Source of the DNA: Allomuricauda sp.
GTDB taxonomy: Bacteria; Bacteroidota; Bacteroidia; Flavobacteriales; Flavobacteriaceae
Direction of reading: 5' to 3'
Assembly (NCBI GenBank): GCA_030148305.1
Contig: JASBTS010000225.1
Span: 1-53,867, forward strand
Length of the DNA stretch: 53,867 bases
Of the stretch, positions 19,567 to 45,284 are shown piece after piece (within the stretch, counting starts at the first letter, position 1; the number at the start of each line of letters is the position of its first letter). The notes below the pieces were generated by a model. That model was not told where the DNA came from and did not search any database. It worked only from the letters and a program-made list of their open reading frames with translations. Made by a program: the position numbers and the translations under genes.

Positions 19567-20463
19567 ATGGTCGATATAACACACAAAGTGAACACCTTGC
19601 GGGAAGCTCCCGCGGAGGCCATCGTAAAAACGAGTAGCCCAGATACCATCAATGCCCTAAAGAACAATCAAGTTCCCAAAGGAAATGTGTTTGAAATGGC
19701 CAAGGCCGCTGGGCTGTTGGGGGTGAAAAAGACCCCAGATTTGCTACCTGATTGCCATCCCTTACCTATCGAATTCACGGGGATTGAATATGAGATCAAA
19801 GGGCTTGAGATTGTCATCACCCTAACGGTAAAGACCATTTATAAAACCGGGGTGGAAGTGGAAGCCATGCATGGGGTAAGCGTGGTGGCACTCACCATGT
19901 ACGACATGCTTAAACCCATTGATAAAAATGTGGAAATCGGAACCATTCGGTTAAAATCCAAAAAAGGCGGAAAATCGTCCTTCAAATTAAACACTGATGG
20001 ATTAAAGGCCCATGTAGTGGTCTGTTCCGATACCATTTCCAAAGGAAAAGGAGAAGATACCGCAGGAGAAGGCATTCTGTTAAAACTACAGGATTTAGGG
20101 TTGGAAACGGAAAAAACCATCATCCCGGATGAACCTTCGGAGATTGTGAAAATTTTGGAGACCACCTCATCGGATCTCATCATCTATACTGGCGGAACAG
20201 GCGTTGGTCCCCGTGATGTAACGCCCCAAACCTTGGAACCCTTATTGGATATCCGACTGAAAGGCGTGGAGGAGCAAATGCGGAGCTACGGTCAAGAACG
20301 TATGCCGTATGCCATGTTTTCCCGTTCCGTGGCAGGGATAAAAGACGGAAAATTGGTATTGGCCTTCCCGGGTTCATCCCGTGGGGCATTGGAGTCCATG
20401 GAGGCCATTTTTCCACATGTGTTGCATGCATTTAAGGTGATAGAAGGAAAACGACATGATTGA
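19567..20463 (+). CDS. moaCB: Bifunctional MoaC-MoaB fusion protein
   Basis: N-terminal MoaC (LLPDCHPLPIEFTGIEYEI; GVEVEAMHGVSVVALTMYDMLKPID) fused to MoaB (DLIIYTGGTGVGPRDVTPQTLEPLLD; AFPGSSRGALESMEAI). Confidence 0.93.
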   Translation: MVDITHKVNTLREAPAEAIVKTSSPDTINALKNNQVPKGNVFEMAKAAGLLGVKKTPDLLPDCHPLPIEFTGIEYEIKGLEIVITLTVKTIYKTGVEVEAMHGVSVVALTMYDMLKPIDKNVEIGTIRLKSKKGGKSSFKLNTDGLKAHVVVCSDTISKGKGEDTAGEGILLKLQDLGLETEKTIIPDEPSEIVKILETTSSDLIIYTGGTGVGPRDVTPQTLEPLLDIRLKGVEEQMRSYGQERMPYAMFSRSVAGIKDGKLVLAFPGSSRGALESMEAIFPHVLHAFKVIEGKRHD

Positions 20464-21448
20464 AAGAACGCCTAAAATAATTGACAATTTTGGTAGGCCG
20501 CATACGTATCTCAGAATATCATTGACGGATCGGTGCAACCTGCGCTGTTTTTACTGCATGCCCGAAGAAGGTATTGAATTGATTGAAAAGCCCAACATCA
20601 TGACGTTGGAAGAAATCATTGAGATGGCACGTACTTTTAGGGATTTAGGTGTGGATACCATTCGGTTGACGGGTGGTGAACCTTTGGTTCGTAAGAATTT
20701 TGATTTTCTGGTGGAAGAACTGTCCAAATTGGGCGTAACACTTAAGTTGACGACCAATGGTATCGTTTTGGACAAATACTTGGACCTGTTTGAAAAGATT
20801 GGTCTTCGGAAAATAAATCTTAGTCTGGATACATTGGATAAGGCCAAATCCGTGTTCATCACCAAGCGTGATTATTACGAACGGATCATGGCCAATTTGA
20901 ACCGTGCCCTGGAGATGGATATGGATCTCAAACTCAATGTGGTTCTGATCAAGGGAGTTAACGATAACGAGATCAATGATTTTATCGCCCTCACCAAGGA
21001 TAAAAACCTAGTGGTCAAGTTCATTGAGTTCATGCCCTTTAAGGGGAACAAATGGGATTGGAACAAAGGCGTAGGAAGAGAGGAAATTTTACATGCCATT
21101 GGCTCCAATTTTGGAGAAATTGAGGAACTGCACAATCCCAAGCACAGTACATCCACCAATTTTAAGGTGAAGGGGCACAAAGGAAGTTTTGGTATTGTAA
21201 GCACCATCACCAATCCTTTTTGCGATGATTGCAATAGGATCAGACTTACAGCGGATGGAAAAATGAAAAACTGTCTGTTCGCCACTTCGGAGACCGATTT
21301 ACTCTCTCATTTACGCAATGGCGAAAAATTGGACGATATCATCATAAATGCCATCAAATCCAAAAAACATTCTCGGGACGGCATGGAAGTGAAAATGGAG
21401 GAAGAGCACTACGAACAAAACCGGTCCATGATATCAATAGGAGGATAA
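20456..21448 (+). CDS. moaA: GTP 3',8-cyclase MoaA (radical SAM)
   Basis: YLRISLTDRCNLRCFYCMP (CxxxCxxC), TGGEPLVRKN, FCDDCNRIRLTADGKMKNCLF. Confidence 0.96.
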   Translation: MIERTPKIIDNFGRPHTYLRISLTDRCNLRCFYCMPEEGIELIEKPNIMTLEEIIEMARTFRDLGVDTIRLTGGEPLVRKNFDFLVEELSKLGVTLKLTTNGIVLDKYLDLFEKIGLRKINLSLDTLDKAKSVFITKRDYYERIMANLNRALEMDMDLKLNVVLIKGVNDNEINDFIALTKDKNLVVKFIEFMPFKGNKWDWNKGVGREEILHAIGSNFGEIEELHNPKHSTSTNFKVKGHKGSFGIVSTITNPFCDDCNRIRLTADGKMKNCLFATSETDLLSHLRNGEKLDDIIINAIKSKKHSRDGMEVKMEEEHYEQNRSMISIGG

Positions 21449-22614
21449 TGGTAAGCATAGAAGAAGCCCTCAATAGCGTTCAAAACCAAGAAATAACTTC
21501 AAAAGTGGAAGTAAAACCACTTCCAGAAGTTTTGGGCTTTGCCCTTTCCGAAAATATCATGGCCCCTTTTGACATGCCTGCTTTTGACAATTCGGCGATG
21601 GACGGTTATGCCCTTTGTGGTCTCCACAAAGAGTATAAAATTATAGGAGAAATTGCTGCGGGAGACACCAAGAATCTTTATTTAAAAGATGGTGATGCTG
21701 TGCGAATTTTTACAGGAGCAAAGGTTCCGGCCAATGCCTCAGCTGTAATGATGCAGGAAAAAACCAAAGTTGAGGGAGTAACCCTTTTTTTGGATGAAAT
21801 GCCAAAGGCTGGCCAGAGCATCCGTAAAAAAGGGGCAGAACTCCAAAAAGGACAACAGGTACTTCAAAAAGGGCATGTGTTGAATCCGTCCTCCTTAGGA
21901 CTTGTCGCAAGTTTGGGAATGGATAAGGTGAAAGTTTTTTCCAAACCAAGAATCCACATGATCACCACGGGAAATGAATTGGTAAAACCCGGTCAACCGA
22001 AACAGGAAGGCCAGATTTACGAATCCAATAGTTTTGCTATTGAAGGCGCTTTGGAACAATTCGGATTTAATTGTGCCCAACAACAACAGGTGAAGGATGA
22101 TTTTGAAGAAACCAAAAAAGGCATCCGAAAATCCATGGAAACCTGTGACGTTTTGATTCTCTCTGGAGGCATTTCCGTGGGCGATTATGATTTTGTAAAA
22201 CAGGCTTTGGAAGGAAATGGGGTGCAGGAACTGTTCTACAAAGTATTCCAAAAGCCCGGGAAACCCTTGTATTTTGGTAGAAGGGATAATCAGTTTGTAT
22301 TTGCTTTGCCGGGGAATCCTGCTTCCTCGCTGACCTGTTTTTTCATTTATGTACTGCCTTTGCTTCAAAAATGGAGCGGACATACAAATCTTGGACTGCC
22401 CTGGTATGAATTTCCCCTTCAACATGAGTATGAAAACCGGTTTGACCGCCCTTCTTTTTTAAAGGCCCGAATGACTTCTAATGGTGTAGAGATTTTGGAT
22501 GGTCAAGGTTCATCCATGATACAATCCATGGCATTGGGTAATGCCCTTGCTTTTGTTGAACTCGGTCAAAAGTTTAAAAAAGGAGACCTGATCAAGTGCA
22601 AACTCATTTCCTGA
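21448..22614 (+). CDS. moeA: Molybdopterin molybdenumtransferase MoeA
   Basis: PAFDNSAMDGYAL, AVRIFTGAKVPANASAVMMQE, ILSGGISVGDYDFVKQAL, ALPGNPASSLTCF. Confidence 0.95.
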   Translation: MVSIEEALNSVQNQEITSKVEVKPLPEVLGFALSENIMAPFDMPAFDNSAMDGYALCGLHKEYKIIGEIAAGDTKNLYLKDGDAVRIFTGAKVPANASAVMMQEKTKVEGVTLFLDEMPKAGQSIRKKGAELQKGQQVLQKGHVLNPSSLGLVASLGMDKVKVFSKPRIHMITTGNELVKPGQPKQEGQIYESNSFAIEGALEQFGFNCAQQQQVKDDFEETKKGIRKSMETCDVLILSGGISVGDYDFVKQALEGNGVQELFYKVFQKPGKPLYFGRRDNQFVFALPGNPASSLTCFFIYVLPLLQKWSGHTNLGLPWYEFPLQHEYENRFDRPSFLKARMTSNGVEILDGQGSSMIQSMALGNALAFVELGQKFKKGDLIKCKLIS

Positions 22615-28768: not shown

Positions 28769-28930
28769 GGTCTAAATTTCGGACAATAATATTGGTTTTC
28801 AAATGGGGTCTATAAAGTATCCGCAAAATAAACACATATAGGGAAGTGGAAAAATATGATAGGGAAGGATTTGGGAAAGGATATGAAAATCATCATTCTT
28901 TTGATGAAAAAGGTTGTTTACTTTAGTGGT

Positions 28931-29773
28931 ATGGCGCATAAAAAAATAGACATCACCAAATCAACCGGGGAAAAGGTTCGGTTTTCCATCGATAAGCTGC
29001 AAAGATCACTTCGGCTTAGCGGTGCAAGCGAAACCGCGGTGCAGGAAATTGTCAAGGTGGTTCAGGACGAACTGTACCCAGGCATCACCACAAGGGAAAT
29101 CCACAATCGTGCCTTTGCCCTTTTGAAAAAAAGAAAGTCCATCTATGCATCCAAGTACAAACTGAAAAAGGCCATTTATGAGTTGGGCCCAACAGGTTTT
29201 CCGTTCGAACGATTTTTGAGTGGGATCTTGCATTATTCAGGATATCGCACCAAAGTGGGAGAGGTTTTGCGGGGGACTTGTGTTTCCCATGAAATAGATG
29301 TGCTGGCCATTAAGAATGGCACCTTGAACATTATTGAATGTAAGTTCCATAGCGAGGATGGACTCAATTGCAATGTAAAAATTCCGCTATACATCAACTC
29401 CCGTTATCATGACGTAAAAGGCCCGTTGGAAGCCAAACCAGACAAAGATTTTAAAGACACCTTGGGTTGGGTGGTTACCAATACCCGTTTTACTATGGAT
29501 GCCATTCAATATGGAAAATGCATGGGGCTGTACTTGTTAAGCTGGGACTACCCCGAAGGGGACGGACTAAAGGACCGCATTGATAGGTTGGGACTTTACC
29601 CGATTACGGTTTCCACCTTACTAAGTAATCGGGAAAAGGATTTTTTGTTGGAGCGTGATGTGGTGCTTTGCCGCCAATTGTTGCACGATAGCTTTTTATT
29701 GGACCACCTTGGGGTATCCAACGGAAGAAAGGAACGCATCTTGGGCGAGATGAAATCACTGTGTGTAATGTAA
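28931..29773 (+). CDS. ATP-cone domain plus restriction-endonuclease-like (PD-(D/E)XK) protein
   Basis: N-terminal ATP-cone (ITKSTGEKVRFSIDKLQRSLRLSGASETAVQEIVKVV...ITTREIHNRAFALL); C-terminal HEIDVLAIKNGTLNIIECKFH (D...ExK); start moved to ATG 28931. Confidence 0.82.
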   Translation: MAHKKIDITKSTGEKVRFSIDKLQRSLRLSGASETAVQEIVKVVQDELYPGITTREIHNRAFALLKKRKSIYASKYKLKKAIYELGPTGFPFERFLSGILHYSGYRTKVGEVLRGTCVSHEIDVLAIKNGTLNIIECKFHSEDGLNCNVKIPLYINSRYHDVKGPLEAKPDKDFKDTLGWVVTNTRFTMDAIQYGKCMGLYLLSWDYPEGDGLKDRIDRLGLYPITVSTLLSNREKDFLLERDVVLCRQLLHDSFLLDHLGVSNGRKERILGEMKSLCVM

Positions 29774-29780
29774 GATCGGG

Positions 29781-31151
29781 ATGAACAAACTTAAAATTCA
29801 GTTTTTAGGAGGAGCCGGAACCGTCACGGGGTCCAAGTTTTATTTGGAGACAGATGGAATCAACATCCTGGTGGACTGTGGCATGTTTCAGGGATTGAAG
29901 GAACTCAGGTTACAAAATTGGGAACCCTTGCCCATTCAGGTTTCCAATATCGATGTGGTTTTGTTGACCCATGGGCATTTGGATCACTGCGGGTATTTGC
30001 CTTTATTGGTTAAACAGGGTTTTACAGGAAAGATTTTGGGAACTGCTCCCAGTTTGGAAATTACGCGGATTATTTTAGAGGATAGTGCCAAAATCCATGA
30101 AGAAGAGGCAGAAAGGGCAAACCAAGAAGGCTATAGTAAGCATCATCCAGCGCTTCCTCTTTATACCCAGGATGATGTGGTTGCAGCACTCAGCCTTTTT
30201 GAAAGTATTGAGGAGGGGGAAGACATATCCCTATCCGAAAACTGCCGGGCTTGTTTTAAATACAATGGTCATATCATCGGTTCCACTTTTATCGAATTGC
30301 ATCTTTTTGGTAAACTTTTTGTTTTTTCAGGGGATGTGGGAAGAATGCAGGATGACCTGCTCAATCCGCCTAAACAACCCCAATGGGCCGACTATCTTTT
30401 TGTGGAAAGCACCTATGGAGATAGGTTGCACCCGAAGGAAGATGTCGCAGGAATACTTACCGAACTGATTGATCGATCCATAAAAGAACGGGGTACTTTG
30501 ATCATTCCTTCCTTTGCTGTAGAACGGTTACAATCCCTGATGTATCAATTGTGGAAATTATATAGCAAGAACCTGATTCCCAATATTCCCATTTTTGTGG
30601 ACAGTCCAATGGGCACCAATGTGTTGGGAGTGTTCGAACATTATCCAAAATGGCACAAGCTTTCCTTGGAAGAATACCACAATATGTGCAACCATATCAA
30701 TTTGGTCAGTTCGTACAGGGAAACCTGGGAAACCATCGATGATCCACGACCAAAGATTGTGATAGCCGGGAGCGGCATGGTTACTGGAGGAAGGGTTTTG
30801 ACCTACATCAAGCAATTGGCGGATAAAAAATCGACCTCCATTTTGCTTGTAGGTTACCAAGCCGAAGAGACCCGTGGCCGAAAATTGTTGGAAGGTGCCA
30901 CTGAGCTTAAAATGTTCGGAAAGTATGTGGATATCAATGCCAAGATCATGCACTTGGAGAGTCTATCCGCACATGCCGATCAAGAAGAACTGTTGACATG
31001 GATGGGCTTCATTCAAAATATTCCTGAAAAGGTTTTCTTGATCCATGGCGAAAATGCCGCAATGGAAACCTATCGAACAAAAATTAAGGAAAGGTTCGGA
31101 TGGAGCTGCCATATTCCCAAACTACACGAAGTTGTGGAATTGTGGCTGTGA
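29781..31151 (+). CDS. MBL-fold beta-CASP RNA exonuclease/endonuclease (RNA specificity factor-like)
   Basis: LLTHGHLDHCGYLPLLVKQG (HxHxDH), FSGDVGR, VFVDSPMG beta-CASP, SGMVTGGRVLTYIKQ, LSAHADQEELL. Confidence 0.93.
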   Translation: MNKLKIQFLGGAGTVTGSKFYLETDGINILVDCGMFQGLKELRLQNWEPLPIQVSNIDVVLLTHGHLDHCGYLPLLVKQGFTGKILGTAPSLEITRIILEDSAKIHEEEAERANQEGYSKHHPALPLYTQDDVVAALSLFESIEEGEDISLSENCRACFKYNGHIIGSTFIELHLFGKLFVFSGDVGRMQDDLLNPPKQPQWADYLFVESTYGDRLHPKEDVAGILTELIDRSIKERGTLIIPSFAVERLQSLMYQLWKLYSKNLIPNIPIFVDSPMGTNVLGVFEHYPKWHKLSLEEYHNMCNHINLVSSYRETWETIDDPRPKIVIAGSGMVTGGRVLTYIKQLADKKSTSILLVGYQAEETRGRKLLEGATELKMFGKYVDINAKIMHLESLSAHADQEELLTWMGFIQNIPEKVFLIHGENAAMETYRTKIKERFGWSCHIPKLHEVVELWL

Positions 31152-31152
31152 A

Positions 31153-31806
31153 TTACAGTTTCACCCCATAACTCAAGTCCCCGGCATCTCCGAGTCCGGG
31201 AATGATGTATCCCTTGCTCGAAAGTGTTTCGTCTACAGCAGCAATCCATAATTGGGTATCCCTTGGAAACACCTCTTCTACCTTGGAAACCCCAATTTTG
31301 GACCCTATGACCGAAATAATGTGGATTTGTTTTGGCGTACCATGTTGCTTTAATGCATTCAACACATTTTCCAAAGTTTTTCCTGTGGCCAGCATCGGGT
31401 CGGTAAGGATCAAGATTTTTCCATCTAGGGATGGAGCAGCAAAATATTTTACGATGACCTCAAAATCATCCTCATCATTTGGGTGATGACGATAGGCGGA
31501 GATAAAGGCATTTTCGGCACCATCAAAGAAATTCAAAAGACCATTATGAAGGGGTAGACCTGCCCTCAAAACCGAACAAAGTACGAGCTGGTCAGAGCAG
31601 AGATAGGTCTTTTTCTTGCCAAGGGGTGTGGTAATTTCAGCTTCCTCATAATCTAAAGATTGACTCACCTCATAGGCCAAGACCTCGCCAATCCGTTCAA
31701 TGTTCCTTCTAAAGCGCATGGAATCCTTTTGAATGTTGACATCGCGCATTTCGGCCAAAAAGGTATTTAAAATGGAATTGGTCTGATCGAACTGGTGTAC
31801 TATCAT
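31153..31806 (-). CDS. upp: Uracil phosphoribosyltransferase
   Basis: VLRAGLPLHNGLLNFF, LILTDPMLATGKTLENVLNAL (PRPP loop), YIIPGLGDAGDLSYG. Confidence 0.92.
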   Translation of the reverse strand: MIVHQFDQTNSILNTFLAEMRDVNIQKDSMRFRRNIERIGEVLAYEVSQSLDYEEAEITTPLGKKKTYLCSDQLVLCSVLRAGLPLHNGLLNFFDGAENAFISAYRHHPNDEDDFEVIVKYFAAPSLDGKILILTDPMLATGKTLENVLNALKQHGTPKQIHIISVIGSKIGVSKVEEVFPRDTQLWIAAVDETLSSKGYIIPGLGDAGDLSYGVKL

Positions 31807-31885: not shown

Positions 31886-31899
31886 CTGATATCGATCAT
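31886..31899 (+). promoter_or_regulatory. Crp/Fnr-type operator A (upstream of dnaJ/cbpM)
   Basis: C-TGAT-ATCG-ATCA-T; -7-like TTATTTTG at 31923-31930, centre-to-centre 34 bp. Confidence 0.55.
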
Positions 31900-32001
31900 T
31901 GTGAACATTCCCCAACTTTTTCTTATTTTGAGGAGTGATTTCATAGTGATGAAGTTTTGGTTCATCACAGGAGAGAGCGATCAGTGAACACAATTTCAAC
32001 T

Positions 32002-32910
32002 ATGGATTTTATTGACTATTACAAGGTTTTAGGGGTTGATAAAAGCGCAAGCACCGACGACATTAAAAAAGCGTATCGGAAACTGGCCCGAAAATATCAC
32101 CCCGATTTGAATCCGAATGACAAGGATGCCGAATTGAACTTTAAAAAAGTGAACGAGGCCAATGAAGTGCTGTCGGATCCGGATAAAAGAAAAAAATACG
32201 ACCAGTACGGAAAGGATTGGCAACATGCCGAAGAATTTGAAAAGGCAAAACGTTCCAGGGCACAGCGGCCACAAGAAGATTATTCGGGATATACCTATTC
32301 CCACTCGGGTGGTTCCGCCCAGGATTTTTCGGATTTTTTTGAATCCATGTTTGGGGGAGCCACAGGTTTTGGTGGTAGGGGCCAAAAAGTGCGTTACCGG
32401 GGCCAGGATTATCATGCCGAATTGCATTTATCGCTCATGGATGTGTATACCACGCAAAAGCAGACCCTCACCGTGAATGGCAAGAACATTCGGTTGAACA
32501 TCCCAGCGGGAATCGAAGATGGACAGACCATCAAGATTAACGGTCATGGCGGACCTGGCATTGAAGGCGGCCCGGCAGGAGACCTTTATATCACCTTTTC
32601 CATTACCAACAATACCGATTTTAAAAGAGATGGGGCCGACCTCTACAAAAATGTCCGGGTTCCTTTGGTAAAAGCGATACTCGGTGGCGAGATTGTGGTG
32701 GAAACTTTAACGGGAAAAGTAAAATTAAAAGTAGCTCCCGGAACGGACAACGGAACCAAGGTAAAACTAAAAGGAAAAGGATTTCCCAAATATAAAAAGG
32801 AAGGTCAGTTCGGGGATTTGATATTGACTTATTCAGTCAGCATTCCTAAAAACCTTACCCAGGAACAACATTCCCTGTTTGAAGCTCTTGAAAAAACCAA
32901 CCTAACCTAA
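32002..32910 (+). CDS. DnaJ C-terminal-domain co-chaperone (CbpA-like)
   Basis: [39 protein letters not shown]-domain (HPD); no zinc-finger repeats; start moved to ATG 32002. Confidence 0.93.
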
Positions 32911-32914
32911 AAAA

Positions 32915-33205
32915 ATGGCACAAGAAAACTACATATCGATCAAGGCATTTTGTGAACATCATGGGGTTCAGGAATCCTTTGTTTTCTCTATGCATGAGTT
33001 CGAACTTTTAAGGGTTGACCATGTTGAAGAGGAAGCTTTCATTCCCATGGAAGAATTGCCCATCCTTGAGAAAATGGTACGGTTACATCGAGAACTGGAC
33101 ATAAATCCTGAAGGTATTCAGGCGGTGTATCATTTGTTGGAGCAGGTGCAAAATCTACAACAAGAAGTTGCCTCCCTACGTAGAAAATTGGATAGGCTAG
33201 GATAA
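32915..33205 (+). CDS. CbpM-like MerR-type chaperone modulator
   Basis: ISIKAFCEHHGVQESFVFSMHEFELLRV...LEKMVRLHRELDINPEGIQAVYHLLEQVQNLQQEV; directly follows the DnaJ gene. Confidence 0.85.
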   Translation: MAQENYISIKAFCEHHGVQESFVFSMHEFELLRVDHVEEEAFIPMEELPILEKMVRLHRELDINPEGIQAVYHLLEQVQNLQQEVASLRRKLDRLG

Positions 33206-33224: not shown

Positions 33225-33238
33225 ATGACCTAGGTCAT
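33225..33238 (+). promoter_or_regulatory. Crp/Fnr-type operator B (upstream of UspA-1)
   Basis: Perfect palindrome ATGACC-TA-GGTCAT (fits TGAY-N4-RTCA); only a T-rich TTTTTTTA lies at +33. Confidence 0.6.
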
Positions 33239-33369
33239 AGGATTGGGGTTACAGCATTTCTTTTTTTAAGCTTAAATCCAAACAAATGGAAACTATTTCA
33301 GGAATAGGGGTTTTGGGTTTTGGATTCTTTGTTCAAGAACAAAATCCCGTGGCGATAACTTCGGACATC

Positions 33370-34191
33370 ATGAAAAAAATTCTAGTACCCATCGATTTTT
33401 CCGAGTATTCGGAATATGCCCTTGAGGTGGCTGCGCAGATTGCCAAAAGCCATGAATCAGGGATTGTGCTGTTGCATATGATCGGCATGTCCGAATCCGT
33501 ATTGGACAACTCGGAAATTGCCAAGGAGCAAGAGGCCAAGTACTATTTAAAATTGGCCAAGAAAAAACTAAAAGACTTTACCAAAAAAGAGTATCTCCAA
33601 GAAATTCCTGTTGAGGTCATCATTCAAAACTACAAGGATTTTAAGGAAGTGAACCAAGTGGCCAAAGAGCAAAATTGCGATTTGGTGGTCATGGGATCCC
33701 ATGGTACAAGTGGTTTGTCCGACTTGTTTGTAGGCTCCAATACGGAAAAGGTGATCCGTACTTCGGATATCCCCGTTTTGGTTATCAAACACCGTTACTT
33801 GGATTTTAAGGTGAAGAAAATAGTCTTTGCTTCCGATTTGGAAAATGAAAGCATTACAGCTTTTAAAAAAGCATCCGCATTTGCAAAGCTGTTATCGGCC
33901 TCTATCGAAATAGTATACATCAATGATGCAGGTGCCAATTTCATGGGAGTTGATGATGTGAGAAAACGGGTGGACGATTTTAAAAAGGAATTAGACCAAA
34001 CCATTGAGGTGCATTTTTACAACTATCACACGGTGGAAGGTGGATTGTTCAACTATTGCCTGATGAACGATGTGGATTTATTGGTAATCCCCACCCACGG
34101 CCGAAAAGGTTTTGCTCATTTTCTAGTTGGAAGCTTAGCAGAAAATGTATCCAATCATGCCAAACTACCGGTGATGACCATTAAACTATGA
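33370..34191 (+). CDS. Universal stress protein, two UspA domains (Usp-1)
   Basis: MKKILVPIDFSEYSEYALEVA; GSHGTSGLSDLFVGSNTEKV and PTHGRKGFAHFLVGSLAENV nucleotide-binding motifs. Confidence 0.92.
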   Translation: MKKILVPIDFSEYSEYALEVAAQIAKSHESGIVLLHMIGMSESVLDNSEIAKEQEAKYYLKLAKKKLKDFTKKEYLQEIPVEVIIQNYKDFKEVNQVAKEQNCDLVVMGSHGTSGLSDLFVGSNTEKVIRTSDIPVLVIKHRYLDFKVKKIVFASDLENESITAFKKASAFAKLLSASIEIVYINDAGANFMGVDDVRKRVDDFKKELDQTIEVHFYNYHTVEGGLFNYCLMNDVDLLVIPTHGRKGFAHFLVGSLAENVSNHAKLPVMTIKL

Positions 34192-34654: not shown

Positions 34655-34668
34655 ATGACCAAAATCAG
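34655..34668 (-). promoter_or_regulatory. Crp/Fnr-type operator C (upstream of TerB-like gene; overlaps annotated kinase start)
   Basis: A-TGAC-CAAA-ATCA-G; minus-strand -7-like TATCTTTA at 34632-34625, centre-to-centre 33 bp. Confidence 0.55.
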
Positions 34669-34684
34669 TACCTTTAAGGTGACC

Positions 34685-36214
34685 ATGGAACTACTTGAAA
34701 AATATGATGTTTTGAAGGTGATTTCGGAAGTGATTTCCGAAGGAGTTGTCATTGTGGATGAATCACAAGAGATTGTGTCAAGCAACACCGCGGCCAATAA
34801 AATGTTCGGATACCAAGAAGAAAACCTAGTGGGCAAGCCCTTGGATGTTTTGATTTTGGATGGATTGCGCCAAAGACATCGTCATGAAGTACGGGATTTT
34901 ATCGAGGAAGGCAAAGCAAGGACCATGGGTCCAGGTCTGGAACTTTACGGCGTGCAACAGAGCGGGCAGCGTTTTCCTTTGGAAATAAGCCTGAACCCTT
35001 TCAATTTGGGGGGTAAAAAATATGTGATGGCCATTGTGGTGGACGTTACCGAGCGGAAAAAAGCGGAACAGACGATTGACTATTGGTTCCAAATTTTTGA
35101 TGAATCGCTGAATGAGATCTATGTATTTGATGCCGAAACGTTCGTGTTCATCAATGTGAATCGTGGGGCCCAGCTCAATTTGGGGTACAATCTGGAAGAA
35201 TTGAACAGATTATCGGTGCTGGACATCAAACCTAAGTTATCCAAAGAGGTGATGAAACGATTGGTGGCACCCTTGATCAGTGGAAAGCGTGAAAAAGTGA
35301 GTTTTGAAACTGTTCACAAACGAAAGGATGGTAGCCACTATCCGGTAGAGGTGCACCTTCAATTGTCCGCCATTGGCAAACGGAAGGTCTGTGTGGCCAT
35401 TGTTTTGGATATCACGGAACGAAAAAACTACACCCAGCAGTTGGAGAACACGGTTGAGGAACGTACCCAGCAACTTAGGGAAGCCTTGACCGCAGAAAAA
35501 AAGTTGAACGAACTCAAGACCAAGTTTTTGTCCTTGGTCTCCCATGAATTCAAAACCCCGTTGACCAGCATTTTGACTTCCACTTCATTATTGTCCAAAT
35601 ACACGGAAACCGATCAGCAAGACAAAAGGGACAAGCACATCAATACCATCAAGTATAAGGTGAGGCATTTGGACAACATCCTCACCGATTTTCTTTCCAT
35701 TGAGCGGTTGGATACAGGCAAGGTCAATTATAATATAACCAACTTCCCGTTGAGCAAGTTGGTCAATGAGGTTATTTATGACTCCAATACATTACTGAAA
35801 GAAGGACAGCATATCCGATACCCTTTGGATATTGAAGGTATTACTATCGATTTTGATGAAAAGATAGTGGCATTGTCCCTCTCCAACTTGGTACACAATG
35901 CCATAAAATATAGTCCCGAGGAAACGGAAATAGAACTTAGGGCAACACAGACAGGCACTATCTTACGGATTGACATTATTGATCAAGGACTTGGCATACC
36001 GATAGAGGAGCAACCCTTTATTTTTGATCGGTATTTTAGGGCCAGTAACGTACTCACTGTTCAGGGTACGGGGATTGGGTTGAACATAGTACGCCAGCAT
36101 ATGCACAACCTTGGAGCCAACATCACCTTTACAAGTGAGTTGGGCAAGGGCTCCACATTTACACTGCACATACCCATTAACAACAAGGAAAATGAAAAAA
36201 GTGCTTCTGGTTGA
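34685..36214 (+). CDS. PAS-PAS sensor histidine kinase (soluble, no TM segment)
   Basis: Two PAS domains, HisKA SLVSHEFKTPLTSILTS, HATPase NLVHNAIKYSPEE...DQGLGIP...GTGIGLNIVRQHM; ORF track start 34655, ATG 34685 preferred. Confidence 0.93.
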   Translation: MELLEKYDVLKVISEVISEGVVIVDESQEIVSSNTAANKMFGYQEENLVGKPLDVLILDGLRQRHRHEVRDFIEEGKARTMGPGLELYGVQQSGQRFPLEISLNPFNLGGKKYVMAIVVDVTERKKAEQTIDYWFQIFDESLNEIYVFDAETFVFINVNRGAQLNLGYNLEELNRLSVLDIKPKLSKEVMKRLVAPLISGKREKVSFETVHKRKDGSHYPVEVHLQLSAIGKRKVCVAIVLDITERKNYTQQLENTVEERTQQLREALTAEKKLNELKTKFLSLVSHEFKTPLTSILTSTSLLSKYTETDQQDKRDKHINTIKYKVRHLDNILTDFLSIERLDTGKVNYNITNFPLSKLVNEVIYDSNTLLKEGQHIRYPLDIEGITIDFDEKIVALSLSNLVHNAIKYSPEETEIELRATQTGTILRIDIIDQGLGIPIEEQPFIFDRYFRASNVLTVQGTGIGLNIVRQHMHNLGANITFTSELGKGSTFTLHIPINNKENEKSASG

Positions 36215-37241
36215 GGATGACACCTCTTTGCGTGAAAATGTAGAAGAATTATTGGGACTTTCGGGATTCAGGGTTTTTACTGCCTCCAATGGAAAATTAG
36301 CCGTGGAACTGGCGCAAAAGGAGCGTCCGGACATTGTGCTTTGCGATATCATGATGCCCGAAATGGACGGTTATGAGGTGCTTGAGCAAATGGCATCCTG
36401 TGATCGGACCAAACATATCCCCTTCATTTTTGTATCGGCCAAAACCGAGCGCTCCGAAGTACGCAAAGGGATGGACTTGGGTGCGGATGATTATCTGACC
36501 AAACCTTTTGAGGAGGAGGAACTATTAGGAGCTATTTATTCCCGATTGGAAAAAGCGGAGCATTTAGAGAGTTCCTTTTTGGAGCGTAATAAGCCAAACA
36601 AAGAGGAAGATGACATACGTTCACTGAATGAACTGAAGAATTTCTTCGATGATCACGGACAAGTATTCCAATACAAAAAAGATGAAACTATTTATACCAT
36701 TGGCGACCATTCCAATATGGTATATCTTATTTTAAAAGGGGTAGTGAAGTGCTGTGGACTTGACGAAGAAGGTAAGGAACTTATTACTTCGGTATACTCG
36801 GAGGACGATTTTCTTGGATTCACCTCGCTCACCGATAACCTTCCTTACCAAGAATATGCTGTGGCCATCGAAGATGTGGAATTGGCGGGAATCCACAAGG
36901 AAAAGGTAAAATCCATCCTTGAAGAAAACAAACACATTTCCTTGGAACTGATGGATGTCATTGCAGAAGATCTGGTGCAGATAAAAAAGCAGTTGTTGCA
37001 AATGGCCTATAGTTCTGTACGAAAGAAGACGGCCCAAACCCTATTGATGTATTCAAAGGCCATGAACAGGGGCAAAAACAACCCCTTAAAAATTGCCCGT
37101 AGCGATTTGGCAGGCGTGGCGGGCATTGCCACGGAAAGCTTGATCAGAACCTTGTCCGATTTTAAGAATGAGGGACTCATCGTCATAGAAAACAGAAATA
37201 TTGTGGTGTTGGACAAAGAAGCGTTGGAGCGGGTGCACTAA
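36192..37241 (+). CDS. Response regulator: receiver domain fused to Crp/Fnr effector (cNMP-fold plus HTH_Crp)
   Basis: MKKVLLVEDDTSLRENVEEL...DIVLCDIMMPEMDGYEVL...ADDYLTKPF receiver; GVVKCCGLDEEGKELITSVYSEDDFLGFTSL beta-roll; ARSDLAGVAGIATESLIRTLSDFKNEGLI HTH; overlaps kinase by 23 bp. Confidence 0.94.
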   Translation: MKKVLLVEDDTSLRENVEELLGLSGFRVFTASNGKLAVELAQKERPDIVLCDIMMPEMDGYEVLEQMASCDRTKHIPFIFVSAKTERSEVRKGMDLGADDYLTKPFEEEELLGAIYSRLEKAEHLESSFLERNKPNKEEDDIRSLNELKNFFDDHGQVFQYKKDETIYTIGDHSNMVYLILKGVVKCCGLDEEGKELITSVYSEDDFLGFTSLTDNLPYQEYAVAIEDVELAGIHKEKVKSILEENKHISLELMDVIAEDLVQIKKQLLQMAYSSVRKKTAQTLLMYSKAMNRGKNNPLKIARSDLAGVAGIATESLIRTLSDFKNEGLIVIENRNIVVLDKEALERVH

Positions 37242-37266: not shown

Positions 37267-37280
37267 ATGATATTTATCAT
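37267..37280 (+). promoter_or_regulatory. Crp/Fnr-type operator D (upstream of Usp-2)
   Basis: ATGAT-ATTT-ATCAT; -7-like AAACTTTG at 37303-37310, centre-to-centre 33 bp. Confidence 0.62.
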
Positions 37281-37329
37281 TCCATTTGTTTAAGGGAATG
37301 TTAAACTTTGGGCCTTATTCAGAAGCCCG

Positions 37330-38166
37330 ATGAAGAATATTTTGATCCCGACGGATTTTTCTGAAAACTCCACCAACGCGTTAAAATATGCCCAGATGTT
37401 GTTCGGTTCCTTGGAGTGCAACTTTTATTTGCTCTATGTGGGTTCGGTTTTGGATTCCAATGTTGAAGATGGAACAGTAGATGAGACCAAAGGCACATTT
37501 CCTTTGACTTCCAAGCAAAAATTGATGGAATTGGTGGAGAATATCCGAAAACAAAACAATGACCCTGACCATTCCTTTTACTCCCTACATGAAAATGGTT
37601 TTTTTGTTCCTACGATCAAAAAACATGTGGAAGGTCAACACATCGACCTTATTGTGATGGGTACCAAAGGAGTGTCGGGTATTCAAGAGAAAGTGGTGGG
37701 CAGTAATGCTGGCGATGTGGTGACCAAGGTACAATGCAATACTTTGGTGGTGCCTAATAATGTGGAGTTTTCAAAACCCATTGAAATTGCTTTTCCCACA
37801 GATTATAATATTTTCTATTCCCATGAGATATTGCGCTCCATGGCCGAAATGTTGGACTTGGGCGACGGGAATTTTAGGATCATGAATGTAATGAAAGACC
37901 ATGATTCCCTAAATCCTGAACAAACCACAAATAAGGATTACCTCCTCGATTTTATGGAAGAATCCTTTCCTGGGCGGTACAGTACGCACACCATAACCAA
38001 CAAAAGTGTAAAGTCCGCTATTCAATGTTTTGTTGAAAGCAGGGATATCGATATGATGTTCATGGTGGCCAAAAACCTGAACTTTATTCAGTTGATATTG
38101 TTCGATTCCCTTGTGGAACAGATCAGTTTTCATACCAAGGTACCTTTCTACGTCATACACCAATAA
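37330..38166 (+). CDS. Universal stress protein (Usp-2)
   Basis: MKNILIPTDFSENSTNALKYA; GTKGVSGIQEKVVGSNAGDVV. Confidence 0.9.
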   Translation: MKNILIPTDFSENSTNALKYAQMLFGSLECNFYLLYVGSVLDSNVEDGTVDETKGTFPLTSKQKLMELVENIRKQNNDPDHSFYSLHENGFFVPTIKKHVEGQHIDLIVMGTKGVSGIQEKVVGSNAGDVVTKVQCNTLVVPNNVEFSKPIEIAFPTDYNIFYSHEILRSMAEMLDLGDGNFRIMNVMKDHDSLNPEQTTNKDYLLDFMEESFPGRYSTHTITNKSVKSAIQCFVESRDIDMMFMVAKNLNFIQLILFDSLVEQISFHTKVPFYVIHQ

Positions 38167-38196
38167 GGCGATTTAAAATAGCGACCTTTTGTTAAG

Positions 38197-38210
38197 GTGA
38201 TGGAAATCAT
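38197..38210 (+). promoter_or_regulatory. Crp/Fnr-type operator E (upstream of Usp-3)
   Basis: G-TGAT-GGAA-ATCA-T; -7-like TAGCTTTA at 38233-38240, centre-to-centre 33 bp. Confidence 0.65.
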
Positions 38211-38271
38211 AGAATTTGAATCCATGAGTAGCTAGCTTTATGGTATTGTAGGATATGTAAACACTTGAGCT

Positions 38272-39120
38272 ATGATGAAGGTTGTACTGCCCACCGATTT
38301 TTCCGAAAACGCATTCCATGCCATCAGTTATGCGGCCCAGTTGTTGGAGAATACCACCACCGTATTTTATTTGATGCATGCTTATTCGCCCCCTGTTTAT
38401 CGTATTGATTATGCATTGGGAAGTCCAGGTCAAATGGGTCTGCCAGACGATTTTAGGTATGCGGCGGAATCAAAGTTGGATAAAACCCGAGAACGGATCA
38501 AAGCCCAATTTGACAACCCTAAACATCAATTTGTTACCCATGCGGCATTCAATACCCTTGAGGATGAAATTAGGTTGTTTTCCACCAAGGAACAAGTGGA
38601 TTTGATCATCATGGGAACTCAGGGAGCAACTGGCGCACGGGAAATTTTGTTCGGTTCCAATACGGTTCACGTACTCAACCGTACACAGATTCCGGTACTG
38701 GCCATTCCTGCGGATTACCAATATATTACCCCTGGTGAAATTTTGTTTCCTACCGACCTCGAAATCAATTTTGATCAGGTGGATGTTCCCTTCCTTTTGA
38801 AAATGGCCAAACTATGGCATTCCAAGATCCATATCATGCATGTGGCTTCCCCAGAAGGATTAATGGAGGAACAAGAAAATAACAGGGCCCATTTAGAAGG
38901 ATTGTTAGTGGAACACAACCACACATTTCACGATTTACCTGATCAGGAGTTGACCACCGCCATCAATGCCATACAAGAAAAAGTGACTGCGGAGATGTTG
39001 GTAATGGTCAAAAACAAACACACCTTTTTGGAACGGTTGTTCATAGAACCTGTAATTAAAAATATAGGTCTTCACAGTCCTATTCCCTTTTTGGTATTGC
39101 CCTATAATCTTAAAAGTTAA
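38272..39120 (+). CDS. Universal stress protein (Usp-3)
   Basis: MMKVVLPTDFSENAFHAISYA; GTQGATGAREILFGSNTVHVL. Confidence 0.9.
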   Translation: MMKVVLPTDFSENAFHAISYAAQLLENTTTVFYLMHAYSPPVYRIDYALGSPGQMGLPDDFRYAAESKLDKTRERIKAQFDNPKHQFVTHAAFNTLEDEIRLFSTKEQVDLIIMGTQGATGAREILFGSNTVHVLNRTQIPVLAIPADYQYITPGEILFPTDLEINFDQVDVPFLLKMAKLWHSKIHIMHVASPEGLMEEQENNRAHLEGLLVEHNHTFHDLPDQELTTAINAIQEKVTAEMLVMVKNKHTFLERLFIEPVIKNIGLHSPIPFLVLPYNLKS

Positions 39121-39123
39121 GCC

Positions 39124-39939
39124 ATGTTACAAATTTTGGTTCCAACGGATTTTTCCAACAATTCCTACAATGCCCTGTATTATGCGGCAAAACTGTTCAA
39201 AAACAAGGAATGTATCTTCCATCTGGCAAATGTTTGTACAACATTAGGAGGAAGTGTTTCGGAAACCGAACAAGTGGAATCCGTGCAAGGGTTGGACGCC
39301 ATGGCACACAGGTTGGTGTTGGATTTGGGTAAAAATTCTAAACACCAGATAAAAAAAGTGTCCTTATGCCAAAGTGTTACCAAAGGAGTTTCTGGTTACG
39401 CTAAAGATTTCCCGATAGATTTGATGGTCATTGGCAACAAGTCCAAAGAAGAAGGCGCCAATATCATGTTTGGTAATAATGCCATGCAACTGGTACGTGA
39501 GGTAAATCAATGTCCGGTATTGATTGTACCGTTGGAAATCGATTTTAAACCTGTGGAAAGGATGGCCTTCATTTCCAATTTTATCAATCCTATTGCTGAG
39601 GACAATATAAAGGCAATTTTGTTTTTTTCCAACATCATGGATAGTGCATTGGTGCCCATGAGCATTGAAGAAGGCAAGGGAACGGATTCCATGGCCAAGC
39701 ATAAGGACCATTTTTTAAAAGCCGTTTCCAAAAACCTTTCCAAAGAAGTGGTCTTGCCGGTTTTTCAGGATAAGGTGAAGACCATTTTGGAATTTGTGGA
39801 ACTTTGGAACATTGACATACTTTGCATGGTCTATTACCAACATCACTTCTTTTTGGAATTCATCGGTAAGGGAATCATCAAAGACCTGAACACCAAACTA
39901 TCGGTTCCATTTTTGATTCTTCCAGACCGATCAAGATGA
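39124..39939 (+). CDS. Universal stress protein with degenerate nucleotide-binding motif (Usp-4)
   Basis: MLQILVPTDFSNNSYNALYYA; GNKSKEEGANIMFGNNAMQLV. Confidence 0.88.
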   Translation: MLQILVPTDFSNNSYNALYYAAKLFKNKECIFHLANVCTTLGGSVSETEQVESVQGLDAMAHRLVLDLGKNSKHQIKKVSLCQSVTKGVSGYAKDFPIDLMVIGNKSKEEGANIMFGNNAMQLVREVNQCPVLIVPLEIDFKPVERMAFISNFINPIAEDNIKAILFFSNIMDSALVPMSIEEGKGTDSMAKHKDHFLKAVSKNLSKEVVLPVFQDKVKTILEFVELWNIDILCMVYYQHHFFLEFIGKGIIKDLNTKLSVPFLILPDRSR

Positions 39940-39949
39940 CCTAGGTCAT
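39936..39949 (+). promoter_or_regulatory. Crp/Fnr-type operator F (upstream of Usp-5; contains Usp-4 stop codon)
   Basis: ATGACC-TA-GGTCAT, identical to operator B; -7-like TAGCTTTA at 39972-39979, centre-to-centre 33 bp. Confidence 0.67.
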
Positions 39950-39997
39950 GGCATAGGATTTAAGTTCAGTTTAGCTTTAATGAAAAACATAAAAGCC

Positions 39998-40849
39998 ATG
40001 GACAAGCGTGTATTGTTACCCACGGATTTTTCTAAAAATGCGCTGAATGCCATTAGATATGCCTTTGAGTTGTACAAAGACGTTCAGTGCGATTTTTACC
40101 TTTTGAACGCATTCCATGTTTCTGGCTATAATTTAGACAGCATGAGGGTGCCCGAGATTGGCGAACCTTTATATGAGGCTGCAAAAAAAGAGGCAGAGGA
40201 CGGCATGGCCCGTTTAATGGAACTCCTCGACCTGCATCCTGATAATGAAAAACATACCCTGCATACCATCGTTACCTTTAATAGTCTTACCGAAGCCATA
40301 CGCAACGTAATCGAAACGAAAGATATCGATATTATCATAATGGGTACCAAAGGGGTGACGGATGCCAAGGCCAGGGTTTTTGGAACCAATACGGTATCAG
40401 TGATGGAACGTATTAAAGATTGTCCGGTAATAGCCGTTCCAAGCGATTTTTCTGTGGAACCCCCAAAGGAAATTGTTTTCCCAACGGATTACAAAACGCA
40501 TTTTAAGAAACGCGAAATCCAATACCTTATCGAGATAGCCAAACTACATGGTGCCAAAATCAACGTACTACACATTGACCGTGACAAGGATGGTAAACTG
40601 AATAGGGAAGAAGAGGAAAACAAAAAATTGTTGCTGGATATTTTGGAAGGGACCGACTATGAGATCCATTTTTTGTCTTCCGTGAAGGTGAGCAAGGGAA
40701 TCCATCTATTTGTGGAAAGCAAACATTGTGATATGATTGTTTTTATGAACAGGAAACATTTGTTCTTCGGAAGCATATTATCCAACCCCTTGGTCAAAGA
40801 AATGGGATACGATCCCGAAGTGCCGATATTGGAACTGAATGATAATTGA
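39998..40849 (+). CDS. Universal stress protein (Usp-5)
   Basis: MDKRVLLPTDFSKNALNAIRYA; GTKGVTDAKARVFGTNTVSVM; start moved to ATG 39998 because the -7 element abuts ATG 39980. Confidence 0.9.
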   Translation: MDKRVLLPTDFSKNALNAIRYAFELYKDVQCDFYLLNAFHVSGYNLDSMRVPEIGEPLYEAAKKEAEDGMARLMELLDLHPDNEKHTLHTIVTFNSLTEAIRNVIETKDIDIIIMGTKGVTDAKARVFGTNTVSVMERIKDCPVIAVPSDFSVEPPKEIVFPTDYKTHFKKREIQYLIEIAKLHGAKINVLHIDRDKDGKLNREEEENKKLLLDILEGTDYEIHFLSSVKVSKGIHLFVESKHCDMIVFMNRKHLFFGSILSNPLVKEMGYDPEVPILELNDN

Positions 40850-40860
40850 AAAATAAGAAG

Positions 40861-41292
40861 ATGAAACAAGTTGGAATTTGGTTGGATAAGAAAGAGGCTC
40901 TCGGGGTGGTCTTGGAAGATGGCGGGGAAAGTGTTTTTAATGTTGAGTCCGATTTGGAATTCTTCAATCCCAAAGGCGGATCACGTTCCAAAGCCAACTG
41001 GGGGCCACAAGATGTAGTGCAGGATAGCAAATACATGGAACGGGAAAAAAATCAGCTAAAAAGGTATTTTGAAAACATAACCTTGGAGTTACAAGATGTG
41101 GATGAATTGGCCATTTTCGGACCTGCAGAGGCTCCGGAAAAGTTCATGGCCGAACTGGAGGACAACTATCCCGAACTGGCCCAAAAGGTAACCGTTTCCG
41201 AAAAAACGGACAGCATCACCAAGAACCAGTTCAAGGCCTTGGTGAAACAAACTTTTGGCATGGATGATCGATATCCGGAAAAATCCATTTAG
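40861..41292 (+). CDS. Small baeRF/eRF1-middle-domain-like protein
   Basis: MKQVGIWLDKKEALGVVLEDG...VDELAIFGPAEAPEKFMAELEDNYPELAQKVTVSEKTDSITKNQFKALVKQTFG; GPxEAPxKF resembles eRF1-domain-2-like folds. Confidence 0.55.
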   Translation: MKQVGIWLDKKEALGVVLEDGGESVFNVESDLEFFNPKGGSRSKANWGPQDVVQDSKYMEREKNQLKRYFENITLELQDVDELAIFGPAEAPEKFMAELEDNYPELAQKVTVSEKTDSITKNQFKALVKQTFGMDDRYPEKSI

Positions 41293-41302
41293 AACCACCT
41301 AG

Positions 41303-41316
41303 ATGATTTAGATCAT
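41303..41316 (+). promoter_or_regulatory. Crp/Fnr-type operator G (upstream of 41377 gene/hsp20)
   Basis: ATGAT-TTAG-ATCAT; weak -7-like TACCTTGA at 41339-41346, centre-to-centre 33 bp. Confidence 0.58.
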
Positions 41317-41376: not shown

Positions 41377-41781
41377 ATGGTCACATTGGGAAAAATAGGG
41401 GATTTGCACAAGGAACTCCAGATCTGGAATTCCTATCTGCAGTTTATTGATGATGAAATGCTATTTATCCAACGATTGTTGAACTCCTATGTTTTTGAAC
41501 CAAGGACCCCCAATCTATTTGAACGGTTGGAAGAGTTTAAACGGGAATTCGCCCTTTCCAAAAAGGAAAAGAACCGATTAAAAAAGGAAATTCTGGAGCA
41601 TGAAAAACATCTGGGTGGACTGGTTGAATGCACCACGGACGATTGTGATGCCCACTACTACCAAAAGCACCAAGAATTCAAGGATGTCATGACGGCCTAC
41701 ATAGAGAGTTATCTCAACCTAAAGAACAAGGTGTATAGTTATGCAGGATCCATACTTAAGCGAAAAAAACCACAAGATTGA
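41377..41781 (+). CDS. Hypothetical coiled-coil protein, paralogue of 42343-42786
   Basis: FIDDEMLFIQRLLNSYVFEP...YIESYLNLKNKVYSYAGSILKRKKPQD; similar layout and C-terminus to 42343 product. Confidence 0.7.
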   Translation: MVTLGKIGDLHKELQIWNSYLQFIDDEMLFIQRLLNSYVFEPRTPNLFERLEEFKREFALSKKEKNRLKKEILEHEKHLGGLVECTTDDCDAHYYQKHQEFKDVMTAYIESYLNLKNKVYSYAGSILKRKKPQD

Positions 41782-41848
41782 GATACGGTACCAATGCCGG
41801 TGCATTGGGTTAATTATAACACAAATTCATTATTCTAAAATTTTAATT

Positions 41849-42289
41849 ATGTCACTGGTTAAACTAAACGGAAAGCGATTTCCATGGAATGAGAGCTTGG
41901 TCGATTTTTTTAATCGAGACACTTTTATTGACGATGATTTTTTCAACTTGGAAAAATCTATGCCATCAATGAACGTGAAGGAGCACGAAGATGATTTTGA
42001 AATTGAGTTGGCGGCCCCAGGGTTCGACAAAAAAGATTTCAACATCACTATGAAAGATGACCTTTTGGAAGTTTCTGCACAAAAAAGCAAAGAAGAAACC
42101 GAAAAGGATGAAGACTACACAAGAAGGGAATTCAATTACAATTCGTTTACCCGAACCATGCAATTGCCCCATTCCGTAGATCCAAAAAAAGAAGTGAAAG
42201 CTACTTACAAAAATGGAATCCTAAAGTTGCATCTTCTTAAAATGGAAGAAGCCAAGGAAAATTCCAAAAAAGTAATCGAGGTGGTTTAA
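41849..42289 (+). CDS. Hsp20/alpha-crystallin small heat shock protein
   Basis: MPSMNVKEHEDDFEIELAAPGFDKKDFNITMKDDLLEVSAQKSKE; ATYKNGILKLHLLK; start moved to ATG 41849. Confidence 0.94.
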   Translation: MSLVKLNGKRFPWNESLVDFFNRDTFIDDDFFNLEKSMPSMNVKEHEDDFEIELAAPGFDKKDFNITMKDDLLEVSAQKSKEETEKDEDYTRREFNYNSFTRTMQLPHSVDPKKEVKATYKNGILKLHLLKMEEAKENSKKVIEVV

Positions 42290-42804: not shown

Positions 42805-43815
42805 ATGATGAAAATTCTGGTTTACAGTGCCAAGGATTTTGAGGTGGAAAACCTCAAGAAGGCTAATGGGGAGAGGCACAAGATCAAATTTGTACCCGAA
42901 GCCTTGGATGCTACAACGGCGGTAATGGCTGCCGGGTACGATGCCATTTCCATTTTTTCAAATGACGATGCTTCGTTGGTCGTCCTCGAAATCCTCAAGG
43001 AACTTGGGGTAAAATACATCACCCTTCGGGCCACGGGTTATAACAATGTGAGCATTAAATCTGCCATGAGGATAGGATTAAAGGTGGCCTATGCACCGGA
43101 ATATTCGCCCCATGCCATTGCGGAACATACCATTGGTCTTCTCTTGGCTCTCAACCGGAAATTGGTCTTGGCCCATGAACAGGTATGCCAGTATAATTTT
43201 ACGTTGGACAATTTGATAGGGTTCGACCTGAACGGAAAAACCGTCGGTATTTATGGAACGGGTAAGATCGGTTCCATTTTGGTGAAGATTTTTCATGCGT
43301 TCGGATGCAAGGTAATCGCTACCGATGTCCATCAAAACCAATACCTGGAAAATCATTACGACTTGGAATATCTTCCTTTGGAAGAAATGTGCAAAAAGGC
43401 CGATGTGGTCAGTATCAATGTTCCCCTTTCCTATGAAACCCACCATTCCATTAGTGCTTCCCATTTCAAGTCGATGAAAAAAGGATCTTTTGTGGTCAAC
43501 ACGGCCCGTGGAGGGATCATAAAAACCGAAGATTTGATCGAGGCCCTAAAAAAAGGAATTCTTGGAGGTTACGCCACGGATGTTTATGAAGGGGAACGGG
43601 GCATATTCTTTAAGGATAACAGCAAAAGGGGAATTGATGATCAAAAACTCAAGGATCTCATCGCCATGCCCAATGTGCTCCTAACGCCACACCAGGCTTT
43701 TGCGACCAAAGAGGCCTTGGAACGTATTGCAGCAACTACTCTGTACAATTTGGATTGTTGGGAAGAGGGGAGGACCTGTAAAAATGAGTTGGGGTATGGG
43801 ACCTTTGCCCTATAA
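42805..43815 (+). CDS. D-2-hydroxyacid dehydrogenase (D-lactate dehydrogenase-like)
   Basis: KYITLRATGYNNVSIKSAMRIGLKVAYAPEYSPHAIAEHTIGLLL; GKTVGIYGTGKIGSILVKIFHAFGCKVIATD; FVVNTARGGIIKTEDLIEAL; LLTPHQAFATKEAL. Confidence 0.92.
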   Translation: MMKILVYSAKDFEVENLKKANGERHKIKFVPEALDATTAVMAAGYDAISIFSNDDASLVVLEILKELGVKYITLRATGYNNVSIKSAMRIGLKVAYAPEYSPHAIAEHTIGLLLALNRKLVLAHEQVCQYNFTLDNLIGFDLNGKTVGIYGTGKIGSILVKIFHAFGCKVIATDVHQNQYLENHYDLEYLPLEEMCKKADVVSINVPLSYETHHSISASHFKSMKKGSFVVNTARGGIIKTEDLIEALKKGILGGYATDVYEGERGIFFKDNSKRGIDDQKLKDLIAMPNVLLTPHQAFATKEALERIAATTLYNLDCWEEGRTCKNELGYGTFAL

Positions 43816-45270: not shown

Positions 45271-45284
45271 ATGATGGAAATCAG
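45271..45284 (-). promoter_or_regulatory. Crp/Fnr-type operator H (upstream of cls)
   Basis: A-TGAT-GGAA-ATCA-G, core identical to operator E; perfect minus-strand -7 TATCTTTG at 45249-45242, centre-to-centre 32 bp. Confidence 0.58.

Follow-up and report, generated by a model that had tools for sequence, protein, structure and literature searches.

An ATP-cone fused to a predicted PD-(D/E)XK nuclease and paired with a beta-CASP nuclease gene in a stress-gene island of Allomuricauda sp.

Introduction

To our knowledge, ATP-cones have been characterised almost only in ribonucleotide reductases (RNR) and NrdR. In Card1, Can2 and Cdn1, a nucleotide-sensing CARF domain is fused to a PD-(D/E)XK nuclease; MspJI and the Card1/Can2-type enzymes, which are among the nearest characterised folds of the nuclease described here, act on DNA. 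In archaea, nucleotides are degraded into central metabolism by a route of AMP phosphorylase, ribose-1,5-bisphosphate and RuBisCO. The ATP-cones described elsewhere read dATP/ATP (PMC5794259, PMC9110341), and in NrdB of Leeuwenhoekiella a cone is attached to an unrelated core, the activity of which is controlled via dATP-induced oligomerisation (PMC5794259). For AF1548 of Archaeoglobus fulgidus, residues D38, E51 and K53 were predicted in 2007 (PMC1821046). In Bradyrhizobium, the metallo-beta-lactamase (MBL) gene bll3115, the PRPP synthase (PRPPS) gene bll3116 and the phosphorylase gene bll3117 are upregulated in microoxia at the protein and transcript level (PMC6515984).

The window analysed here is a stretch of 53,867 nucleotides (contig JASBTS010000225.1, positions 1 to 53,867, forward strand) from a genome of Allomuricauda sp. 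(GCA_030148305.1) with a completeness of 80%. The nearest database loci were 96-98% identical (Allomuricauda/Flagellimonas-like). An earlier note, made from the sequence alone, had described an ATP-cone fused to a restriction-endonuclease-like domain and, 7 bp downstream, a beta-CASP metallo-beta-lactamase gene, and had proposed that the pair senses energy status or acts in defence. Domain searches and Foldseek analysis of an AF2 model agreed on the fusion, and the coordinates and the gap proved correct. The domains themselves are already known; for their combination in an ATP-cone nuclease, no description of a function was retrieved in a search of open-access papers.

Results

Both genes of the pair are located on the plus strand, with a spacing of 7 bp:

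28931..29773, plus strand: ATP-cone and AF1548-like PD-(D/E)XK nuclease, 280 aa (profile searches, homologue alignment, AF2 model)
28952..29155, plus strand: ATP-cone domain, aa 8-75 (PF03477, hhalign to the NrdA cone of the same genome, Foldseek to NrdR)
29198..29545, plus strand: PD-(D/E)XK core, about aa 90-205, with HEID at 29288-29299 and ECK at 29336-29344 (profiles, alignment, Foldseek)
29597..29758, plus strand: AF1548-like C-terminal domain, aa 223-276 (PF22357)
29781..31151, plus strand: nuclease with MBL, beta-CASP and RMMBL domains (bCASP), 456 aa, TTHA0252-like (domain searches, motif alignment)

The reading frame of the nuclease is open from 28856 and stops at 29773. The start was placed at 28931 because conservation and homology as well as the conserved TTTAGTRRTATG context begin there.

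Assignment to the PD-(D/E)XK nucleases was based on the fold and the D-Xn-ExK residues (profile, Foldseek, alignment). H120-E121-x-D123 and E136-C137-K138 were invariant in 29 homologues with identities down to 38%, and D123, E136 and K138 aligned with D38, E51 and K53 of AF1548. The predicted nuclease keeps intact catalytic residues. AF1548 (PDB 1y88) was the only sequence relative in the PDB (E 5e-25 with a single sequence, 1e-45 by profile). It was also retrieved by Foldseek with the AF2 model of the nuclease (pLDDT 87.4; E 7e-16, TM 0.80 on target), as were the CARF nucleases Can2 and Cdn1 (E 3e-5 for Cdn1). The nuclease and C-terminal domains are shared with AF1548 over about 187 positions, including the D...ExK residues, but the AF1548 chain is without ATP-cone, the match beginning at profile position 87. 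Among the 29 diverse homologues, 26 matched Mrr_cat and 21 matched PF22357, which scored weakly in the 280-aa protein itself (15.1 bits); the genome search with PF22357 gave no match in any control genome and was hence uninformative. Card1, Can2 and Cdn1 are related to this protein by a works-like analogy, as a nucleotide-sensing domain is fused to a PD-(D/E)XK nuclease, but the sensor here is an ATP-cone, not CARF, and no cyclic oligoadenylate system was seen.

The ATP-cone is a borderline member of PF03477, with 27.6 bits against a cut-off of 25.8 in the genome search and 24.6-24.8 bits, slightly under this cut-off, in single-protein scans. All 29 of the diverse nuclease homologues matched the family (best E 8.5e-9). 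The cone was aligned by hhalign with the NrdA cone of the host genome (E 9e-5), and Foldseek of the AF2 model matched NrdR and RNR ATP-cones with a probability of 0.98-1.00 and an E-value of about 1e-2. The cone of NrdBi gave no confident alignment, and a phmmer search of the cone alone against the PDB yielded designed helical repeats and short chance matches only. Fold, overall motif order and the N-terminal position as in NrdA and NrdBi are shared with the RNR/NrdR cones; in contrast to these, the cone resides on a nuclease, scores lower (24-40 bits versus roughly 50-80 for RNR cones) and has lost the second basic residue of KRDG. Where the nucleotide-contact motif is VxKRDG, this cone reads ITKSTG, with K and G kept and R replaced, KRDG being changed to K-S/A-x-G. 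Because of this divergence, ATP/dATP sensing should not be assumed; nucleotide sensing as judged from the sequence is plausible, and the ligand, if any, may differ from ATP/dATP. The dATP-induced oligomerisation of Leeuwenhoekiella NrdB suggests, by analogy, how a nucleotide could act on the nuclease.

The low scores, the altered KRDG motif and a Pfam match covering positions 3-79 of 88 would also suit a degenerate structural or oligomerisation module which senses no nucleotide, the nuclease being controlled by transcription only. This explanation is possible but doubtful: in homologues down to 38% identity, K10, K22 and S26 do not vary and G13, F18 and T54 hardly do, the AF2 model resembles the NrdR cone, and a glucoamylase-family protein carries a related cone in a separate fusion. 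The latter cone, 35-36% identical, was found two genes after the nuclease in one locus (L120:2685-3819) and also in another (L146). A reused sensor is suggested by this fusion, and the cone seems to have been reused on another polymer-degrading enzyme.

In bCASP, the MBL, beta-CASP and RMMBL domains are all present with their metal-binding motifs (HGHLDH at 29970-29987), and an alignment of 125 sequences showed the metal-site and beta-CASP motifs to be conserved. Among solved structures, type VII Cas14 and TTHA0252 (PDB 2dkf) come closest to bCASP, which has the complete MBL/beta-CASP/RMMBL core in common with them; unlike these, it lies outside a CRISPR context, in a stress operon, and is paired with an ATP-cone nuclease. 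Assignment as a type VII Cas14 was rejected, with 361 bits against a cut-off of 800 and no cas partners among the neighbours.

The pairing of nuclease and bCASP is conserved. bCASP was located directly 3' of the nuclease, usually within 15 bp, in 80 of the 80 best loci of the genome contigs search, most loci being from one bacterial family and not independent. In 60 relatives plus the host genome, 35 of 38 bCASP genes had the nuclease directly upstream; of the exceptions, one was at a contig end and two were in other families without the nuclease. Conversely, bCASP followed 35 of the 47 nuclease genes in this set and was missing after 12, so the nuclease also occurs alone. The pair was kept in 16 of 29 phylum-wide diverse Bacteroidota loci (L114-L142) and was present on a Pontibacter plasmid and a plasmid of Criblamydia (Chlamydiota), the breadth beyond Bacteroidota being taken from plasmid records and one genome contigs scan having been made in all. 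The neighbourhood check proposed in the earlier note thus showed the pair to be retained in different families and in a second phylum.

The surroundings of the pair in the window comprise the following features:

28884..28895, plus strand: degenerate candidate CRP/FNR-type site TGAAAATCATCA (weak)
31153..31806, minus strand: uracil phosphoribosyltransferase (UPRT), convergent with the pair (NF001097, 208 bits, cut-off 114)
31886..31899, plus strand: TGAY-N4-RTCA box between the divergent UPRT and DnaJ genes (palindrome search)
31957..32910, plus strand: DnaJ family chaperone (domain searches)
32915-33205, plus strand: CbpM-like modulator, after DnaJ (domain searches)
33225..33238, plus strand: perfect palindrome ATGACCTAGGTCAT (palindrome search), upstream of the universal stress protein (Usp) gene, ORF 33286-34191
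34655..36214, plus strand: two-PAS histidine kinase (PDB matches of the first PAS, homologue alignment)
36111..37241, plus strand: response regulator fused to cNMP-binding and CRP-type HTH domains (domain search)
37267, 39936 and 41303: boxes in the Usp tandem/pelota region (CRP/FNR-type palindrome)
within 37267..41316, plus strand: Usp tandem, ORFs 37330, 38272, 39124 and 39980 (similarity, domain searches)
40846-41292, plus strand: pelota/eRF1-like ORF, 148 aa (weak match, E 3e-4)
41741..42289, plus strand: Hsp20 family protein (domain search)
42805..43815, plus strand: D-2-hydroxyacid (lactate-type) dehydrogenase (domain searches)

The earlier idea of a link to energy status was borne out insofar as these neighbours are energy and oxygen stress genes. 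Similar stress neighbours, named by similarity to window and plasmid proteins, occurred in most Flavobacteriaceae examined, the exact set varying by genus. These surroundings argue for a low-oxygen/low-energy programme and against defence. The best PDB matches of the first PAS domain were the heme-PAS oxygen sensors DosP and FixL; His75 occupies the heme-ligand position and was kept in 35 of 41 homologues. The PAS kinase and the CRP-type response regulator (34655-37241) are therefore a candidate heme oxygen-sensing pair, and the regulator is a candidate reader of the TGAY-N4-RTCA box through its CRP-type HTH domain. Separately, ORFs at 16134-22614 resembled molybdenum-cofactor biosynthesis genes, as judged by eye from the translations.

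The motif mTGAY-N4-RTCAk was derived from an unbiased palindrome search; the classical perfect FNR box TTGAT-N4-ATCAA and the CRP box were not found in the window. The box occurred 8 times in the window versus 0.99 expected, a count that none of 100 shuffles attained. Of the 22 ATGAY-N4-RTCAT sites in the genome, 4 fell in one 8-kb stretch of the window. Background density in coding DNA was 0.096 per kb. Positioned about 55-95 nt before the gene start, the motif lay upstream of 87-100% of the Usp278, Usp282, Usp301, Hsp20, PAS-kinase, DnaJ and ORF135 genes (24/24 regions for the Hsp20 homologues), of 57% of the Usp289 genes and in 61% of the UPRT homologous regions; a control set of 'other' neighbouring genes was likewise enriched, presumably reflecting regulation of the island as a whole, so that these figures should not be read as a clean test for a regulon. 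In the promoter region from which the nuclease is served, the box was present in 42 of 49 more distant Flavobacteriaceae loci (L065-L113) and 13 of 31 loci of the Allomuricauda type; the close relatives L034-L038 have it. In the window, the degenerate site TGAAAATCATCA lies 47 nt before the nuclease ATG, with a score above the 95th but below the 99th percentile of shuffles. On the basis of sequence, the boxes are candidates for defining an oxygen/energy regulon in Flavobacteriaceae. A further TGAY-N4-RTCA box was located at 45271.

Second or third pairs were present in many Allomuricauda genomes, with identities of 45-51% for the nuclease and 53-55% for bCASP. The gene order of these sister copies was D-hydroxyacid dehydrogenase, Usp, ATP-cone nuclease, (84-aa ORF), bCASP, AMP-phosphorylase-family protein, PRPPS and P-type ATPase, with genes for phosphofructokinase, class I aldolase (FBA), type II GAPDH or acetate-kinase-like proteins nearby. 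In the 60 relatives, each of the 15 AMP-phosphorylase-family genes came directly after a bCASP, and the nuclease was present in all 13 genomes that carry such a gene. One sister phosphorylase scored 489 bits versus the AMP phosphorylase cut-off of 535 and passed the parent subfamily. Phosphorylase and PRPPS genes were absent beside the copy in the window, which is thus outside such a salvage operon, and the phosphorylase was not found anywhere in the 80%-complete host genome.

The Criblamydia operon consists of phosphoketolase, glgP (glycogen phosphorylase), ATP-cone nuclease, bCASP, phosphorylase, PRPPS and ackA. On three alphaproteobacterial plasmids and one betaproteobacterial plasmid, bCASP occurred with phosphorylase and PRPPS without the cone nuclease, two of the four also carrying a phosphoketolase-like gene. 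The microoxia-induced bll3115-3117 genes of Bradyrhizobium bring together the same gene types (MBL, PRPPS, thymidine phosphorylase; PMC6515984), but the proteobacterial operons examined were without ATP-cone nuclease. With the archaeal AMP phosphorylase route, the sister operons share a homologous phosphorylase family and would share nucleotide phosphorolysis leading to central metabolism; they differ in having PRPPS, phosphoketolase and glycolysis neighbours, and no RuBisCO-type genes were seen among the neighbours.

Discussion

Our preferred reading, held tentatively, is that of a nucleotide-gated nucleic-acid recycling module within an oxygen/energy-stress regulon to which the nuclease and bCASP genes would both belong. 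The ATP-cone would switch the AF1548-type nuclease according to the adenine-nucleotide pool and make it the gated entry step, after which nuclease and beta-CASP ribonuclease, acting in one pathway, would degrade nucleic acid of the cell itself. In favour of this reading are the conserved pairing, the linkage of bCASP to phosphorylase and PRPPS genes in sister copies, in Criblamydia and on the proteobacterial plasmids, the microoxia induction in Bradyrhizobium, the CRP/FNR-type boxes and the DosP/FixL-like kinase. The substrate is most likely RNA, which we infer from the bCASP partner, the AMP-phosphorylase-like enzyme, the UPRT and the eRF1-like neighbour, although DNases are among the PD-(D/E)XK relatives. 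Uracil might be salvaged by the UPRT at this locus, and nucleotides in the sister copies by AMP-phosphorylase-family enzymes and PRPPS; the resulting ribose phosphates could feed glycolytic or phosphoketolase/acetate-kinase ATP production. Counting against recycling are the lack of phosphorylase and PRPPS beside this pair, the degenerate box, the 12 of 47 nucleases without bCASP, the divergent, low-scoring cone and the presence of NrdD, with which the host may be an ordinary facultative anaerobe. If the recycling reading is true, a nuclease under a cone switch, with genetic links to nucleotide phosphorolysis and an oxygen-responsive regulon, would tie energy status directly to nucleic-acid turnover, which bears on what makes bacteria digest their own RNA under starvation or oxygen deprivation. 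A wider proposal, that many Bacteroidota and some Chlamydiota perform an energy-gated self-digestion in which the cone nuclease opens when the adenine-nucleotide pool falls, and RNA or DNA is passed via bCASP, an AMP-phosphorylase-type enzyme and PRPPS to fermentative ATP formation during oxygen loss, is speculative and rather unlikely.

The same genes could serve growth arrest instead of fuel supply, the pair cutting mRNA or stalled ribosome-bound RNA and, jointly with the Usp, Hsp20, DnaJ and pelota/eRF1-like proteins, shutting down translation and bringing on dormancy. In most Flavobacteriaceae loci outside Allomuricauda, the gene immediately preceding the nuclease is a pelota/eRF1-like ORF or a Usp gene, and the chaperone and Usp genes have the box in common. 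We consider such an arrest function a serious but less likely alternative, since phosphorylase, PRPPS, glycolytic and acetate-kinase genes in the sister operons would be needless for arrest alone and the pelota match is weak.

Still less probable is a role on DNA, in which the nuclease would trim or degrade DNA for repair, or to regain dNTPs once the oxygen-dependent class I RNR has stalled, its cone reading dATP/ATP as in RNR and NrdR. The DNA-acting enzymes among the nearest characterised folds and the dATP/ATP-reading cones described elsewhere fit this possibility, but the partner is an RNase-type beta-CASP, the sister phosphorylase is nearest to AMP phosphorylase, a ribonucleotide enzyme, and the genome encodes the anaerobic NrdD in addition to NrdA with its cone. 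The idea that failure of the oxygen-dependent RNR is the only driver is weakened by NrdD.

An anti-phage or restriction system set off by altered nucleotide levels is highly improbable: the similarities of the PD-(D/E)XK fold to the CARF-linked Can2/Cdn1 nucleases and of bCASP to Cas14 of type VII CRISPR are opposed by the score far below the Cas14 cut-off, by the missing cas partners and by the recurrence of the pair in stress islands. The defence role considered in the earlier note is likewise unlikely, as no homologues of the pair were detected in phage and viral scans, the identified neighbours were without defence genes, and PADLOC gave nothing specific, only domain-level matches to the PD-(D/E)XK part.

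Further observations on sister loci

The 84-aa ORF between the sister nuclease and bCASP encodes a C-terminal CCGGH (L169:9735-9989). Some sister nucleases, part of them without bCASP, were located in copper/heavy-metal efflux islands with CusA-like, P-type ATPase and HMA proteins (L147, L172, L145).
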